Shown here in pieces: positions 13,817 through 39,460 of a stretch of DNA of 41,587 nucleotides. The DNA comes from Candidatus Eiseniibacteriota bacterium. GTDB lineage: Bacteria > Eisenbacteria > RBG-16-71-46. The stretch is from positions 1-41,587 of the forward strand of contig JACRPT010000131.1 in the NCBI GenBank assembly GCA_016223045.1, read 5' to 3'. How positions within the stretch are numbered: the stretch's first letter is position 1; every line of letters begins with the position of its first letter. The notes under the pieces are model-generated. The model was not told where the DNA came from, did no database searches, and saw only the letters and a program-made list of their open reading frames with translations. A program made the translations under genes and the position numbers.

Positions 13817-13867
13817 TGGTAGCGGGGGCTGGATTTGAACCAGCGACCTTCGGGTTATGAGCCCGAC
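13817..13867 (-). pseudogene. Truncated tRNA-fMet (3' 51 nt)
   Basis: The 51 bases are identical to nucleotides 27-77 of the intact initiator tRNA at 19025-19101: part of the anticodon stem, CAT anticodon, variable loop, T arm, acceptor 3' strand and CCA. The 5' half is replaced by unrelated sequence. It cannot fold as a tRNA and marks the left boundary of the island. Confidence 0.9.
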
Positions 13868-14170
13868 CGGCACCGCAGCGTCCGGGCGGGCCCCCGGCAC
13901 GGAGGCTCGGATGCCCCACCGCACGGCATCCATGCTTGCGTGCCCCCCGCGCCATGCGGGCACGAGGCCGAGAGCGATGGGCTGTCAGCCTACACCATGG
14001 TGAAGGCCGGGTGACATGCCACAAGCGCCGACAGACTACTTGACATGGCAATTCGTGCCGCTCCATCTTGTGGCTTAGCTGAGCCGACATCCACACGAAA
14101 CGACCACCATATCCCATCCAAGATGGCTCCCATCGGGCAGAGCCAGCTTGGAGTGTGAGGAATTCATAAG

Positions 14171-28305: not shown

Positions 28306-29648
<1,343 letters not shown>

Positions 29649-29652
<4 letters not shown>

Positions 29653-31172
29653 CCGGTCCCGGCCTCGCGGCCGTCCTCCAGGTCGAGGGGCAGCGTGAGG
29701 CGGGCGCACGCCCCGCCGCCCTCGCGGTTCTCGAGCGTCACGCCACCGCCGTGCTGGCGCGCCACGTCGCGGACCAGCGAGAGCCCCAGTCCGCTGCCGC
29801 GGTCCTTGGTGCTCACGTACGGGTCGAAGGCGCGCTCCGCCAGCCCGGGCGGCAGCCCCGGCCCGCGGTCCAGCACTTCCAGCACCGCCAGGGCGCCCTC
29901 GGCGCGCGTGCGGATCTCGACCGGCGCCTCCGGGCCCGCCTCGCAGGCGTTGATCACCAGGTTGTGCACCGCACGCGAGAGCAGCAGGCGGTCGCCCCGC
30001 ACCCGCAGCGGCTCTCCGCCGAGCGCGAGCCGCACCGCGCCGGGCTCGTGGAGCGCCGCCGCCGCGCGCGCCACCTCGCCGAGGTCGAGCGGCACGATCC
30101 GCGGCTCGGGCAGGCGCGCGTACTGCGAGAACTGCTCCGCCATGGTGGCGAGATTCTCGAGCTCCAGCAGGATCGCGTCGAGGCTCTGCTGCACCGCCTG
30201 CCGCTCGGGTTCCGGCACCAGCGCGGCGCGGCGCTGCACCCGGTGCAGGGCGTAGCGCAGCGTGGTCAGAGGATTCTTGATCTCGTGCGCGACGCGACGC
30301 GCGACCTCGCGCCAGGCCGCCTCGCGCTCGGCCTGCTTGAGCGCCTCGCGCGCCGCCGCGAGCCGCCCGGTCATGGCGTTGAAGGCGAGCGCGAGGGTGC
30401 GCAGCTCGCGCGCCCCGTGCGCCCGCAGGCGCACGGTGAGGTCGCCGCCCGCGACCCGCTCGAGCGCCGCCGCCAGCTCGCTCAGCGGGCGGGTGAGCGG
30501 ACGCGCGAGGACCGCGGACAGCAGCACCGCGAGCGCGGCGAGCGCCACCATGAGACCGGATACCAGCAGCCAGGTGTAGGGGCGCTGCACGTCCACCATG
30601 ACACCGAGCCGGCTGTAGTGGCTGCGGCCCTCGCTCACGCGGGCCACGTCGGCGAAGAAGTCGGGCGGCACCCACATGCCGGCCACCAGCACGTGCGCCG
30701 AATCGAGCGGCGTGGCCGCCGCCAGCGCCCCGCGCGGCGAGTGGAGCACGCGGCCCGCGGCCAGCGCGGCGTCGATCTCGGGTCCGAGATCCACGCCGCG
30801 CGCTTCGATCACACCGGGCGGCACGACCTGGTCGATGCGTTCCCAGCGACCGCCGTGGCGGCGGTAGAGCTGCATGAAGTCGAGGCCCGAAGCGCGCAGC
30901 CCCTCGCGCACCGCCGCGCGCCGTTCGGGCGCGAGGACCGCCGGCGGCAGCGCCGCGACCCAGTCTTCGGCCCGCGCGGTGACCGTGGCCTCCATGCGCA
31001 CGAGCGCGGTCTTGCTCGTCTGCAGCGCCGATTCGAGCGCGCGGTCCACACCCGGGCGGAACCAGTGCGCGGTGGCGCGGTCGAGCTGCACCAGCGTGAA
31101 GGCGGTGAAGACGGCGGTGGGGAGCAGCGCCAGCGCCAGCAGCGCGAGGACCAGCCGGGCGCGGAGGGTCAC
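29649..31172 (-). CDS. NtrY-like membrane sensor histidine kinase
   Basis: About 507 residues from GTG at 31172. Two membrane helices (about 5-28 and 200-222) enclose an extracytoplasmic sensor of about 170 residues. HAMP (about 222-275), a dimerisation domain with phospho-acceptor H296 (RRVAHEIKNPL), then ATPase motifs: N box LVINACEAG, G1 DRGPGLP, F box AFDPYVSTK, G2 GSGLGLSLV. It is the cognate kinase of the overlapping response regulator. The start has a weak ribosome-binding site, 25 nt after rlmN, so the exact N-terminus is uncertain. Confidence 0.9.
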
Positions 31173-31197
31173 GGCAACGGCGCGACCGGGGTGCCGG

Positions 31198-32271
31198 TCA
31201 AGGCTCGGTGCCCAGACCGCCGAGCTGCCCGCACGCCGCCCAGATCTCATCGCCCATGGTCTGGCGCACCGTCACCGCCGGGGCTCGCGGATAGAGCCGC
31301 GCGGCGAACGCCTCGACCGCGTCGGGGCCGGGGCGCCGCCACGACAGGCCGGGCACCGGGTTGTAGGGGATGAGGTTGATCTTGCTGGGCAGCTCGCGCG
31401 CGAAGGCGGCGAGGCGGTCGGCGTCGTCGGGGCCGTCGTTGACGCCGGCGATGAGCGTGTACTCGATGGTGACGCGCCGGCCCGTGCGCTGGCCGTAGGC
31501 CTTCGCCGCCGCCAGCAGCCCGGCCAGCGGCCAGCGCCGGTTGACCGGAACCAGCTGGTCGCGCAACGCGTCGGTGGTGGCGTGGAGCGACACCGCGAGG
31601 CCCAGTTGCAGGCCCTCCTCGGCGAGCTGTGCGATCTGCGGCACCAGCCCGCTGGTCGAGACGGTGATGCGGCGCGCACCGAGGTTCAGGCCCTGCGGAT
31701 CGTGCAGGATGCGGATGGCCTCCAGCACCGCGTGGTAGTTCGCCAGCGGCTCGCCCATCCCCATGAACACGATGTTGAAACGCTCGTCCTGCCAGCCGTG
31801 GAGGTCGCCCATGGCGATCACCTGCGCCACGATCTCCTCGGGCCTGAGGTTGCGCTTCAGCCCCATCAGCCCGGTGGCGCAGAACGAGCACCGCAGCGCG
31901 CAGCCGATCTGGCTCGACAGGCAGAAGGTCAGCCGGCGCGCGGTGCGCATCGAAACGCACTCGACGCGCGCGCCATCCTCGAGCTCGAGCACCAGCTTGT
32001 GCGTCTCCTGCTGCCGGCTGGCCCGGACCGAGAGGGTGCGCGGCAGGCGCAGGTCGCACACCCGGACGAGGTCGCGGCGCAGCGCCCGGGGCAGGTCGGT
32101 CATGCCTTCGGCATCGCGCAGGCGCTTGTGGTACACCCACGAGAACAACTGGCCGGCGCGGTAGGCGGGGAGGCCGCGTTCGGCGAGACGTTCGGCCAGC
32201 CGGGCGCGCGTCAGCCCGTAGAAGCTGGGCGCCTCGTGCGGGACGAAGGAAGGGCTGGGCAGGCTGGACAT
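31198..32271 (-). CDS. rlmN: 23S rRNA (A2503-C2)/tRNA (A37-C2) methyltransferase RlmN
   Basis: 357 residues, normal length. The radical-SAM cluster is C124-ALR-C128-SF-C131 (CALRCSFC). The N-terminal part shows the accessory domain (FYGLTRARLAERLAERGLPAYRAGQLFSWVY in the ordered family pattern). The second catalytic Cys is C347 in MGDEIWAACGQL. FNIVFMGMGEPLANY and STSGLVPQI complete the signature. It methylates A2503 of 23S rRNA and A37 of some tRNAs. The ATG at 32271 is chosen to match the family; an upstream ATG at 32319 would add 16 residues. It heads the minus-strand NtrYX cluster. Confidence 0.95.
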   Translation of the reverse strand: MSSLPSPSFVPHEAPSFYGLTRARLAERLAERGLPAYRAGQLFSWVYHKRLRDAEGMTDLPRALRRDLVRVCDLRLPRTLSVRASRQQETHKLVLELEDGARVECVSMRTARRLTFCLSSQIGCALRCSFCATGLMGLKRNLRPEEIVAQVIAMGDLHGWQDERFNIVFMGMGEPLANYHAVLEAIRILHDPQGLNLGARRITVSTSGLVPQIAQLAEEGLQLGLAVSLHATTDALRDQLVPVNRRWPLAGLLAAAKAYGQRTGRRVTIEYTLIAGVNDGPDDADRLAAFARELPSKINLIPYNPVPGLSWRRPGPDAVEAFAARLYPRAPAVTVRQTMGDEIWAACGQLGGLGTEP

Positions 32272-34734: not shown

Positions 34735-37700
34735 GTGCAGCGAGCGATCCCCCCCGATCTGTCTCACGCGCACACCCCCGACAGGGACGGCGCGCAGCAG
34801 CATGAGGCGATCGGCGATCTCCATCTGGCAGCGGACAACTTCCCCGGGGCCGTCGAGGAGTACGCGGCGGCGCTGAGGTCGGTGGGTACCGATGCTCCTC
34901 AGGAACGCTGCCGGCTGCTGACCAGACTGGCCGAGGCGCACACCGGCCGGGGTGACTTCGACGCCGCGCTGGAGGCTCTGCATGCGGCGCGCGCGACCGC
35001 CCGCCTGCTGCACGAGCCTCACGTCGACGCTCGCATCGCCGCCCGGCTCGCCAACGCCCTCATCCAGCAGGGCGACTACCGCCGCAGCCGCCGCTACGCG
35101 CTCTACGCCTACCGCGTGCTGCGCGATTCCGATGACCACCGCACCGTGGGCCAGGTGGGTGTGACGAGCGGCCTGTGCTGCGCACGCCTCGGGCGGACCA
35201 CGGAGGCGATCGAGTGGCTGCAGAACGCGGCCGCCACCTTCCGTCGTATCGAAGACGTCGACGGGCTGGTGACCGCGCTCAACAACCTCGGGCTGGTCTA
35301 CAAGAACCTGCGCGAGTGGCGCGAAGCCACGCGCTTCCTCGAGCAGGCGCTGCGGCTCGACGAGCGTGCCGGGCTCTACGCGCGCATGCGGGGCCACAAC
35401 CAGAACCTCGGCCTCATCCGCTACCGCCTCGGGCAGTGGGATCTCGCCGAGGAGAACTTCCGCCAGTCGCTCAGGATCTCGCGCGAGACCGGCCATCTGC
35501 AGGGCGAGTCGGCCGCGCTGCTGGCGCTCGGCATGCTGGCGCGCCGCCGGCGCCAGCTCGAGCGCGCCGAGCAGGACTACCGCCGTGGGCTCGAACTGGC
35601 GACGCAGGTGAAGGCGCAGCGCGAGGCCGTGCTGGCGCGCGAGTTCCTGGGCGAGCTCGCGGTGGACCGCGAGGACTACGACGGCGCGATCGCGCTGTTC
35701 GAGCCCGCGCTCGAGGAGGCGCTGCACCTGGCGCCGCAGGGCGACCTGGTGGCGGAGATCGAGAGCCGCTACGGGCTCGCGCTGCTGGGTGCCGGGCGCA
35801 CCGACGAGGCGCAGGCGCACCTGTTGCGCGGCGCGACGCTCGCGGCGCAACTGGGTGACCGCATCGAGGAGGCGCTCGCCGAGCGCTGGCTCGCGCGGGT
35901 GGACGCGGTGCACGGCGACGCCGCGGCGATGGAGGCCAAGCTCCGGGCCGCGGCCCAGTGCTTCGAGGAGCTGAACGAGACCTACGAGCTGGCTGCCACC
36001 CTCGCGGCGTGGGGCGAGTACCTGCTCCAGCTGCCGGCGAGCGCGCGGCTGCGCGTGGTGCTCGAGCCGGTGGCCGACGCCGCCAAGCGCGCGGCCACGC
36101 TGTTCCGCCAGCTCGGCGTGATGCCGCTCGCGGCCGAAGCGCTGCTCACGCTGGCGCGCATCGAGGCCGAGCGCGAGCACTACGACCAGGCGCTGGCGCT
36201 GCTCGAGCAGGCCGAGCTGTGGCTGCTCGAGTCGGGCGCGACCGACGCCGAGGACCGCGTGGGCGCGCAGCGCCGCGAGATCGAGCGCCAGTACGTGGCC
36301 GTGTCGCTCTCGACCTGCAACGAGTTCCGCGCGCTCGAGGACGCCAACCGCCTGTTCCGCGAGACCTCGGACATGGACGGGCTGCTGGCCCAGACCGTGA
36401 AGCTCGCGGTCGAGAACGCCGGCGGCGACCGCGGCTTCGTCGCGTTCAGCAACGGCGGGATGCGGCTCGACGTGGTGGCCCAGCACGGACTGGGCCGCGA
36501 CCGCGCGCGCCGCATCCTGCGCGTCATCGAGGACGTGGTCGGCGCGCGCATCGCCGAGAGCGGGCCGGTGTTCTCGAGCCGGGTTGCCGCCGACCCGCGC
36601 TTCGGCCCGGCGGTGATGGACGCGCTCGAGGGCATCGGCTCGCTGGTGTGCGTGCCGCTCAACTTCCCGTCGCAGTCGGTGGGCCTGGTCTACGTGGACC
36701 GCCTGAACGACAACCTGCTCGGACCGTTCAAGCAGCGCGAGCTCAATCTGCTCGCCGTGCTCGCGAACAGCGCCGCGGTCGCGATCGTCGAGGCGCAGCG
36801 CTCGCTGTTGCTCGCCGAGAATCGCCAGCTGCGCGACAAGCTCAAGCCCAGCCCGGGTTCCGAGCGCGTGGTGACGCAATCGCGCGAGATGAAGGGCATC
36901 CTCAACCTGCTCAGCAAGGTGGGGGACAGCTCGGCGACCGTGCTGTTCATGGGCGAGACCGGGACCGGCAAGGGCCTGCTCGCCCAGGTCGTGCACGAGA
37001 TCTCCAACCGGCGCGACCGCCCGTTCGTCCATGTCAACTGCGCGGCGCTGCCCGAGCCGCTGCTCGAGAGCGAGCTGTTCGGCTACGTGCATGGCGCGTT
37101 CACCGGCGCGATCCGCGACAAGCAGGGCCTGTTCGAGGAGGCCGAGGGCGGCACCAACTTCCTCGACGAGATCGAGAAGGTGCCAGAGTCCGTGCAGGCC
37201 AAGCTGCTCCACGTGCTCGATCGCAGCGAGATCCGCCCGGTCGGAGCGACGCGGAGCAAGAAGGTGGACGCGCGCGTCATCTGCGCCACCGGCGTGGACC
37301 TGCGCGAGCGCATCAAGGAAGGCCGCTTCCTCGAGGACCTCTACTACCGGCTCAACGACATCACGGTGCGCGTGCCCACGCTGCGCGAGCGGCCCGAGGA
37401 CATCCCGGTGCTGGCCCAGCATTTCCTGAACTTCTATTCGCGCCAGATGGAGAAGAACGTCCGCGGGCTGGGCCCCGACGTGATGCAGGTGTTCCTCAAG
37501 CACGAGTGGCGCGGCAACGTGCGTGAGCTGGAGAAGACGGTGAAACGCATGGTGGTGCTGGCCGAGGAGGGCGACGCCCTCGGCCTCGACCTGCTGCCTC
37601 CCGACATGCATGAGACGGCGAAGGTGGTCGAGCGCGTGAACGGCGGGAGCGCCGGCGGCGGCAACGGCGGTCGCAGCCTGCGCAGCAGCATCTCCGAGCT

Positions 37701-37842
37701 GGAGCGGCGCATGATTGCGGAGGCGCTCGAGCGCAATCGCTGGAACAAGGCGCGCGCCGCGCGCGAGCTGGGGCTGAGCTACCCGACGCTGCTCACCAAG
37801 ATCCGCACGCTCGAGATCGAGCGTCGGCGCCACAATCCATAG
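34735..37842 (+). CDS. TPR-GAF-AAA+(sigma-54)-Fis transcriptional activator
   Basis: 1035 residues from GTG at 34735 behind GAGGG. Residues 20-530 are tetratricopeptide repeats (e.g. LTRLAEAHTGRGDFDAALEAL, ALNNLGLVYKNLREWREA). A GAF domain spans about 545-695 (SDMDGLLAQTVKLAVENAGG ... LVCVPLNFPSQSVGLVYVDR). AAA+ domain: Walker A GETGTGKG (740-747), sigma-54 loop GAFTGA (787-792), Walker B FLDEIE (D811, E812), and FLEDLYYRLNDITVRVPTLRER. A Fis helix-turn-helix closes the protein (about 986-1028, NKARAARELGLSYPTLLTKI). There is no receiver domain, so activation is probably through protein or ligand contact with TPR/GAF. Confidence 0.92.
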   Translation: MQRAIPPDLSHAHTPDRDGAQQHEAIGDLHLAADNFPGAVEEYAAALRSVGTDAPQERCRLLTRLAEAHTGRGDFDAALEALHAARATARLLHEPHVDARIAARLANALIQQGDYRRSRRYALYAYRVLRDSDDHRTVGQVGVTSGLCCARLGRTTEAIEWLQNAAATFRRIEDVDGLVTALNNLGLVYKNLREWREATRFLEQALRLDERAGLYARMRGHNQNLGLIRYRLGQWDLAEENFRQSLRISRETGHLQGESAALLALGMLARRRRQLERAEQDYRRGLELATQVKAQREAVLAREFLGELAVDREDYDGAIALFEPALEEALHLAPQGDLVAEIESRYGLALLGAGRTDEAQAHLLRGATLAAQLGDRIEEALAERWLARVDAVHGDAAAMEAKLRAAAQCFEELNETYELAATLAAWGEYLLQLPASARLRVVLEPVADAAKRAATLFRQLGVMPLAAEALLTLARIEAEREHYDQALALLEQAELWLLESGATDAEDRVGAQRREIERQYVAVSLSTCNEFRALEDANRLFRETSDMDGLLAQTVKLAVENAGGDRGFVAFSNGGMRLDVVAQHGLGRDRARRILRVIEDVVGARIAESGPVFSSRVAADPRFGPAVMDALEGIGSLVCVPLNFPSQSVGLVYVDRLNDNLLGPFKQRELNLLAVLANSAAVAIVEAQRSLLLAENRQLRDKLKPSPGSERVVTQSREMKGILNLLSKVGDSSATVLFMGETGTGKGLLAQVVHEISNRRDRPFVHVNCAALPEPLLESELFGYVHGAFTGAIRDKQGLFEEAEGGTNFLDEIEKVPESVQAKLLHVLDRSEIRPVGATRSKKVDARVICATGVDLRERIKEGRFLEDLYYRLNDITVRVPTLRERPEDIPVLAQHFLNFYSRQMEKNVRGLGPDVMQVFLKHEWRGNVRELEKTVKRMVVLAEEGDALGLDLLPPDMHETAKVVERVNGGSAGGGNGGRSLRSSISELERRMIAEALERNRWNKARAARELGLSYPTLLTKIRTLEIERRRHNP

Positions 37843-37861
37843 GTTTCGTTTCCACTTCGAC

Positions 37862-37878
37862 TATCAAGAGTCTTGATA
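37862..37878. promoter_or_regulatory. 17-bp palindrome, operator-like
   Basis: TATCAAGA-G-TCTTGATA is a perfect odd palindrome 20 bp after the activator's stop. Unusually AT-rich for this region; candidate protein-binding site or small hairpin. Confidence 0.4.
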
Positions 37879-37880
37879 AT

Positions 37881-37925
37881 GAAGCCCGTGCTGTTTCGGC
37901 ACTTAGCCGAGCCGGCGCGGGCTTC
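37881..37925 (+). terminator. Branched hairpin, possible terminator
   Basis: GAAGCCCG (37881-37888) pairs with CGGGCTTC (37918-37925), with an inner GTGC/GCAC stem. Followed by GCAATTCTATTG. It probably ends the activator transcript. Confidence 0.4.
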
Positions 37926-38051
37926 GCAATTCTATTGAGAATCAGCCCCCGCGACGGCCCCGGCGAGCGCGTCCGTCCACGCACCCATGTCGCGCTCCAG
38001 TCCCTTGGCGCGCAGACGCTTGGAAGAATGATGGGGCGCTTCACACGGACT

Positions 38052-38067
38052 TGGCACATGCCGTGCT
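38052..38067 (+). promoter_or_regulatory. Sigma-54-type (-24/-12) promoter
   Basis: TTGGCAC-ATGCC-GTGCT has a full TGGCAC -24 box and the invariant GG-N10-GC spacing (GG 38053-38054, GC 38065-38066). The expected transcription start is near 38078, four bases before the first of a series of hairpins and 210 bp downstream of a sigma-54 activator gene. The -12 box is GTGC rather than TTGC. Confidence 0.45.
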
Positions 38068-38081
38068 GAGGTTCCGTGCTC

Positions 38082-38405
38082 GGAGGGGGGGGACCTCCAA
38101 ACAAAGTCCGGCGAAGCTGCCGGACCAGACTCTGGGCTAGCCGGTACCGTGGAGGGTCCGGTCGAGGGTACGAGCCCCAGTCACAGGACAACGCACCGTC
38201 CTCTACGACCGGCTAGCTTGGACTGAACGCGATCATCCTGAAGCAGGGTGGGTCCCGAGCGGCGAGTGGCAAGCGCACCCGGTTCCTGCATCCTCGACGA
38301 AGCGGGCTCACCCGCTCCAGGATTTGAGGACACCGGTCCATCACGACATAGGCCAACACTGGGGGATGTCTAGGCTGTTGTCGTGGTATTCAGGCCGGTG
38401 TCCTC
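38082..38405 (+). ncRNA. Candidate structured RNA (nested hairpins)
   Basis: No plausible protein is encoded. Successive perfect stems: GGAGG/CCTCC (38082/38094); GTCCGGC/GCCGGAC (38106/38119); GCTAGCCGGT/ACCGGCTAGC (38136/38208); GGGTG/CACCC (38246/38276); ATCCT/AGGAT enclosing AGCGGG-CTCA-CCCGCT (38290-38323); GAGGACACCGG/CCGGTGTCCTC (38326/38395) enclosing CACGACA/TGTCGTG (38342/38379). The density exceeds what is seen in other gaps of this window. It could be a small or mid-size ncRNA, a leader of the lipoprotein operon at 38621, or an eroded mobile-element RNA. No known RNA family was recognised. The rest of the 37843-38620 gap holds only the sites listed. Confidence 0.35.
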
Positions 38406-38620
38406 ATCTTCTTCCGGTGTAGCAGACTCCTCACACCTGCGACGCCGGCGCACGATCGAGCCGCCCACGGGTCGCCACCCGCGGGCGGCTCCCGCATTGG
38501 GGCGCATCGGGTTAGCGCTGCGGGCGAGTGCTGCGGCCGGTCCCGGTGAGTGGCATGGCGGTTGCCGGTGTAGACTGCCGCTGACGCAGCGACGCACGCC
38601 CGATCACCGGAGGACTCCCC

Positions 38621-39460
38621 ATGTACCGGCTCCTGCTACCCCTCGTCCTGGTGGCCGCCCTGCTCGGGGGATGCAACGACAGCACCGCTCCGCGGGATGT
38701 CACCGCCCCGGCCGCTCCGCGCGGCCTCTACAGCGTCACGGGCGACCACCGTGTCGCGCTCTACTGGCTCGCCAACACCGAGTCCGATCTGGCCGGCTAC
38801 CGCATCTACGAGGCGCCCTGCGCGAGCGGACCCGACTGTCCGTTCGCCCGCATCGGTACCACTACCGGGCCCAGCTTCGAGGCGACCGGCCTGGCCAACG
38901 GCGTGACCCGCTACTTCGCGGTCGCGGCGGTGGACTATGCCGGGAACGAGGGTGCGCTGACCCGCAACGACGTGCCCGACACGCCGCGGCCGGCCGGCAG
39001 CGGCCTCCCGCTCGACAACTTCTACCCCAGCGGCGCCACGAACTTCGGCTACGACTTCTCGACCTACCTGCTGACCAGCACCACCGCCGCCCCGACCGAC
39101 ATCTTCTACGGCTACTACGTTGACGGTCTCGGGGGCGTCCACCAGCAGGTGTTCGTCCCCGACTATGGCACCGACATCCAGGACGCCGGCTACGGCGGGA
39201 GCCTCGACGATGTGGACTTCGCCCCGAACGGCGGCTGGTCGCCGAGCGGGACCGTGGAGGCCATCCCCGGGCACAATTACGTGGTGTGGACGCGGGACGA
39301 CCACTACGCGAAGTTCCGCGTCGTGAGCGCGGGCCCGAACGACATGCTGCTGGACTGGGCCTACCAGGTGGACCCGGGCAACCGCGAACTGCGCGCCCGC
39401 CCGGTGCGTCCGGAAGGCACGGGGCGGCGGCCGATCGTCTGGCTGCCCGCCTCGAGGTGA
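38621..39460 (+). CDS. Fibronectin-III lipoprotein
   Basis: 279 residues with an ATG behind CCGGAGG. The lipobox is LLGGC (lipidated Cys at about residue 18). An FN3 domain spans about 27-115 (APAAPRGLYSV, VALYWLANTESDLAGYRIY, YFAVAAVDYAGNEG). The C-terminal half is a beta-rich region with DNFYPSGATNFGYDFSTY and GHNYVVWTRDDHYAKFRV; no family was recognised. It is the first of three closely spaced envelope genes (3-nt gap to the next). Likely outer-membrane or periplasmic anchor protein. Confidence 0.8.
   Translation: MYRLLLPLVLVAALLGGCNDSTAPRDVTAPAAPRGLYSVTGDHRVALYWLANTESDLAGYRIYEAPCASGPDCPFARIGTTTGPSFEATGLANGVTRYFAVAAVDYAGNEGALTRNDVPDTPRPAGSGLPLDNFYPSGATNFGYDFSTYLLTSTTAAPTDIFYGYYVDGLGGVHQQVFVPDYGTDIQDAGYGGSLDDVDFAPNGGWSPSGTVEAIPGHNYVVWTRDDHYAKFRVVSAGPNDMLLDWAYQVDPGNRELRARPVRPEGTGRRPIVWLPASR

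Follow-up and report, generated by a model that had tools for sequence, protein, structure and literature searches.

A candidate regulatory RNA gene with a sigma-54 promoter, kept behind a TPR-GAF activator gene across Candidatus Eisenbacteria

In three described systems, a small RNA gene and the gene of a sigma-54 activator are found side by side. The sigma-54-dependent sRNA gene qrr1 of Vibrio adjoins luxO, the gene of its own activator (PMC8043402). In enterobacteria, glmY encodes a sigma-54-driven sRNA and is adjoined, in conserved synteny, by the gene of its activator (qseF of qseEGF; PMC6075780). In Myxococcus, pxr lies 262 nt downstream of the sigma-54 activator gene nla19 (PMC5568312). 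The initial annotation of the locus studied here proposed that a regulator next to its own RNA target would be a new arrangement; given qrr1-luxO, glmY-qseEGF and nla19-pxr, the arrangement as such is already known.

The locus lies in a genome of Candidatus Eisenbacteria, in a window of 41,587 nt (by which we mean the whole stretch of DNA that was analysed). Its features are as follows.

34735..37842, + strand: gene of a sigma-54 activator (bEBP) of 1035 aa, with TPR repeats, a GAF domain, a sigma-54 AAA+ domain with GAFTGA, and a Fis-type HTH_8
38013..38022, + strand: putative activator site, a diverged copy (CAGACGCTTG) of what is CAAC-N2-GTTG-like in relatives; weak in the window
38052..38066, + strand: -24/-12 sigma-54 promoter, TGGCAC-ATGCCG-TGC (GG-N10-GC)
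38078..38418, + strand: predicted ncRNA gene, starting at 38078 +/-2 and ending within the terminator tail, delimited by fold, homologs, promoter and terminal hairpin
38082..38098, + strand: hairpin P1, GGAGG-GGGGGGA-CCTCC, at the 5' end of the RNA
38106..38125, + strand: hairpin P2, GTCCGGCG-AAGC-TGCCGGAC, from the fold and the alignment
38131..38222, + strand: domain P3, a 14-bp stem TCTGGGCTAGCCGG / CCGGCTAGCTTGGA with a conserved interior CGAGGGTACGAGCCCC, from alignments and a cross-family model
38328..38403, + strand: terminator-like hairpin P5, with a G-rich loop TGGGGGATGTC at 38360-38370, from covariation and a cross-family model

We read this locus as an independent gene for a noncoding RNA of ~330-340 nt, which would be transcribed by sigma-54 RNA polymerase whenever the upstream activator is on, and whose transcript would end at P5. 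From the comparative evidence described below, we place the probability of this reading at roughly 0.85.

The upstream gene had been annotated as a TPR-GAF-AAA+ sigma-54 activator, and its Pfam matches agree (Sigma54_activat, 1.8e-62; TPR_12; GAF, 1.2e-10; HTH_8, 1.6e-12). We assessed its association with the RNA in both directions. Starting from the RNA, 32 of the 33 loci whose flanks were fetched have the activator on the same strand, ending 234-405 nt upstream; the remaining locus starts too near a contig end to show an activator. At one locus the contig end is rearranged, so that the last part of the activator gene is visible and nothing more. Starting from the activator, we traced the best activator matches downstream in 13 genomes without a known copy of the RNA. 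Ten of these carry the promoter and the RNA directly behind the activator gene (at up to ~480 nt), three of the ten belonging to family f8; one match stops at a contig edge (G042), and two genomes (G040 and G043) yielded no full activator ortholog and no P1. P1-like strings lacking a promoter in G040 and G045 look like coding DNA or chance, and were rejected. Altogether, every readable junction outside the window (42/42) has a TPR-GAF-AAA+ activator on the same strand, ~230-480 nt upstream of the RNA, while activator identity across the syntenic loci falls to as little as ~36%. Conserved adjacency gives good support to the prediction that the activator drives the RNA, and we consider this very likely. 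The window also contains, at 28306-31250 on the - strand, ORFs resembling a second NtrC-type activator beside a histidine kinase; over 325 aa they share 40% identity with the TPR-GAF activator. Several relatives have a similar match 8-10 kb upstream of the RNA.

The promoter, a GG-N10-GC element with a perfect TGGCAC box, is present as initially annotated, and its position predicts a start near 38078. The strict form occurs in 42 of 44 homologous loci; in G028 the -12 element is poor, and in G045 it is atypical. The DNA-binding domain of RpoN was detected in 44 of 46 genomes, including the genome of the window. Ahead of the promoter, palindromes like CAAC-N2-GTTG (at most one mismatch) occur in 17 of 44 upstream regions, mostly those of close relatives, compared with 1.6 in shuffles. 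Searching the whole genome for more of these sites ahead of TGGCAC gave no excess over the reversed control.

We next consider how widely the RNA is distributed. The RNA region has a blastn match in each of the other 19 genomes belonging to the same family, and their reoriented alignment shows a common promoter, P1, the P3 domain with its 14-bp stem, and P5 with the TGGGGGATGTC loop. For a wider scan, we defined a pattern consisting of the promoter, a spacer of 8-20 nt, and GGAGGGG..CCTCC. This pattern was found in 31 of 47 Candidatus Eisenbacteria genomes and never more than once in any of them, with no match in the reversed control. It follows from this limit of one copy that paralogous activators lack the pattern. 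Adding the loci found beside an activator ortholog brings the number of P1-bearing loci to 41. Among 84,980 species, the pattern has 31 matches. Records bearing the name Candidatus Eisenbacteria account for 22 of them; the remaining nine occur singly and scattered, a number close to what one would roughly estimate for chance.

The RNA region is single copy, no second copy being found in its own genome. It has no match in Rfam 15 at gathering score, and a permissive search gave only matches far under the cut-off, none of them credible. An identity with 6S RNA was rejected, as the window has no 6S match; a 6S-like candidate lies elsewhere in the genome (G000:C115:3614-3846; 39.8 bits, against a family cut-off of 46.4). 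A low-scoring tRNA match (33.2 bits) at 13820-13879 on the - strand of the window is not called by ARAGORN. Among the open papers searched, none treated Eisenbacteria in connection with sigma-54 or with structured RNA. The RNA family appears to be new; absence from Rfam and from open papers does not prove a family undescribed.

On the + strand, 38075-38415 has a folding energy of -172 kcal/mol, compared with -139.8 +/- 5.5 in shuffles (z -5.8, 0/100). The - strand of the same region folds strongly as well (z -4.5), and so folding alone does not fix the strand; we assign the RNA to the + strand because of the promoter, the terminal hairpin and the synteny. The initial annotation stated that there is no ORF here and that a conserved protein in homologous DNA would speak against an RNA. 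ORFs do overlap the RNA, mechanically (for example, 37793-38191 on the - strand), but there is no conserved frame. No reading frame is open in all of 20 relatives, and the length of the RNA in these relatives is frequently not divisible by three; a protein-coding stretch was rejected on these grounds. Conservation is poor in the interior of the RNA (38223-38325). At one locus (L109, in G012), an insert of ~600 nt lies within the RNA gene, between P3 and P5, and contains a Shine-Dalgarno-like AAGGAGG with a lipoprotein-like ORF of ~125 aa.

The series of stems proposed to begin at 38082 does begin there, with P1 as the first stem, and P1 is near-invariant, occurring in 41 of 44 loci. Compensating changes, which had been named as the appropriate check, are found in two of the hairpins. 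In P2, CCGGC/GCCGG is replaced by CCAGC/GCTGG in relatives. P5 covaries strongly: among 19 sequences of family f1, 13 of 28 pairs differ on both sides, pairing is retained in 90.6% of cells (compared with 30-39% in slid controls), and the covariation score is reached by 0 of 500 shuffles. Many relatives have a T run at the terminal hairpin. P3 is nearly invariant within f1. Since P1 and P3 are too invariant for much covariation, their pairing in f1 rests on energy and on changes across families. Models trained on f1 alone find matches at the syntenic place in other families: P3 is recovered in f2 (E 2e-5) as well as in f8 (E 0.009-0.03), while P5 is recovered in f4 (E 3e-6), in f3 (E 0.001) and, weakly, in f10 (E 0.04). 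A pseudoknot between the G-run of P1 and a CCCC in P3 is plausible in f1 and f8; we do not claim it, because f5 has CACC at that place. Conservation, covariation and synteny thus lend strong support to the original proposal of a structured, sigma-54-driven RNA behind an activator gene.

Not all of the hairpins are retained in every family. In f5, P1 is the only one of the two G-loop hairpins to be kept, the P5 motif being absent; in f2, the P5 loop is altered and reads GGGCAA; and in f8 (G026, G029 and G032), P1 is replaced and the G-loop hairpins of P1 and P5 are missing, while the promoter, the P3 domain and the activator are kept.

How might such an RNA act? In the mechanism we propose, the TPR/GAF part of the activator would sense a signal, and the activator would bind just upstream of the RNA promoter. 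Sigma-54 RNA polymerase, once activated, would transcribe the RNA, with P5 ending the transcript. The RNA may then act in trans through its G-rich hairpin loops, that is, through P1 and, in several families, P5; these would either bind a protein or pair with C-rich RNA.

The pairing form of this proposal, which concerns the mode of action, is that the P1 and P5 loops pair with mRNAs, at C-rich segments or at ribosome-binding sites, as Qrr RNAs do. It is a tentative possibility. In other phyla, sigma-54-driven RNAs beside activators are regulatory RNAs, and the P1 and P5 loops are near-invariant in sequence, over and above their pairing. However, this is a long RNA with a strong fold, and Hfq (PF17209) was detected in 0 of 46 genomes of the phylum, with control genomes positive.

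The protein-binding form, compatible with our preferred reading, is that the RNA is a decoy for CsrA: once the activator induces the RNA, the GGA loops of P1 and P5 would bind a CsrA dimer. CsrA has the consensus RUACARGGAUGU, in which GGA sits in a hairpin loop (PMC7652899), and the tip of P5, ACA-CTGGGGGA-TGT, resembles it with a longer loop; the loop of P1 likewise ends in GGA. CsrA is detected in 34 of 47 genomes, including the genome of the window, and in 33 of 41 carriers of P1 as opposed to none of the five genomes without P1 (Fisher p 0.0009), a p-value that overstates the association because the five genomes represent few events (three are from one family and one is incomplete). In f8, CsrA and the P1 and P5 G-loop hairpins are all missing. 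Taken over the phylum, the joint absence of CsrA and these hairpins is suggestive but weak. On the other side, eight carriers of P1 have no detected CsrA, compared with 4.3 expected from incompleteness, and three of the eight are 94-96% complete. Moreover, a second site is not kept in f5 (P1 alone) or in f2 (CsrA kept, altered P5 loop), and the affinity of RsmE falls with extra loop nucleotides. We therefore regard a CsrA decoy as unlikely in this specific form, and CsrA titration as a lead only. Similarly speculative is the broader suggestion of a phylum-wide, Hfq-independent RNA family in which a TPR-GAF sensor would induce a decoy whose paired G-rich hairpin loops titrate CsrA, or some other protein with affinity for GGA or G-rich loops; the RNA would then be a sigma-54-wired counterpart of CsrB/RsmZ.

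A different kind of explanation involves the gene that follows the RNA.

38551..38565, + strand: sigma-54 promoter of the lipoprotein gene, TGGCAT-N5-TTGC, present throughout f1 and in several other genomes
38621..39460, + strand: lipoprotein gene, 279 aa, which often, though not always, adjoins the RNA (tblastn of neighbours)

The RNA could be the 5' leader of a lipoprotein operon, a riboswitch or attenuator in which P5 is a conditional terminator. The two lie on the same strand, and the lipoprotein gene is downstream in most genomes. Yet its separate sigma-54 promoter lies between them in every f1 genome and in several other genomes, and the RNA persists in L120, where the lipoprotein gene was not detected beside it. 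A leader function is thus very unlikely, and the lipoprotein gene is probably outside the RNA transcript. Between the RNA and the lipoprotein promoter, at 38422-38455 and at the equivalent positions in f1, there are conserved GTGT-GCG ... CACACCTG ... GCACAC blocks; these are unlike those ahead of the RNA promoter, and are perhaps sites of a different activator.

We give almost no credence to the idea that the stretch acts as DNA, through protein-binding inverted repeats and with no functional RNA transcribed, for although the inverted repeats of P1 and P3 hardly vary, the compensating changes in P5 and P2, the T run in many relatives and the cross-family model matches all argue against it.

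We return, then, to an independent noncoding RNA gene. Because the protein-RNA pair is kept in almost every sequenced member of Candidatus Eisenbacteria, the RNA is very probably a real regulatory RNA. It would give a phylum that is largely uncultivated, and in which Hfq went undetected, a family of regulatory RNA. Its regulator and promoter can be read from the sequence, and the pair has held across the phylum even as other parts of the RNA were remodelled; it therefore offers a clean comparative system for studying long folded RNAs without Hfq and the partners of G-rich loops.

By its predicted properties, the locus belongs with the Qrr1, GlmY and Pxr kind: it has a -24/-12 promoter (42/44 loci), an adjacent activator (42/42 junctions), and an RNA that appears noncoding and structured. 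It differs from qrr1-luxO in that the latter pair is divergently oriented and LuxO is a quorum-sensing response regulator. Furthermore, Qrr RNAs are short and Hfq-dependent, whereas Hfq went undetected in the phylum studied here. The glmY gene lies ahead of the regulator genes, receives its input through a histidine kinase and response regulator, and encodes a shorter RNA. As here, a lipoprotein gene is also found in the neighbourhood of glmY (PMC6075780). Pxr resembles our RNA in having its own sigma-54 promoter, a multi-hairpin fold, and conserved synteny behind a sigma-54 activator gene (PMC5568312); it differs in its length of ~108 nt and in its activator, which is described as a response regulator. 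The likeness to Pxr is one of description rather than of direct sequence comparison. The scan for promoter and P1 had no match in a record named as a myxobacterium. Decoys of the CsrB/RsmZ type share GGA motifs in hairpin loops, whereas the Eisenbacteria RNA has one or two GGA loops, as candidate CsrA sites, and a predicted sigma-54 promoter. What appears to be new, compared with all of these systems, is this family of RNA, together with its length, the TPR-GAF type of its regulator, and its fixation throughout the phylum.
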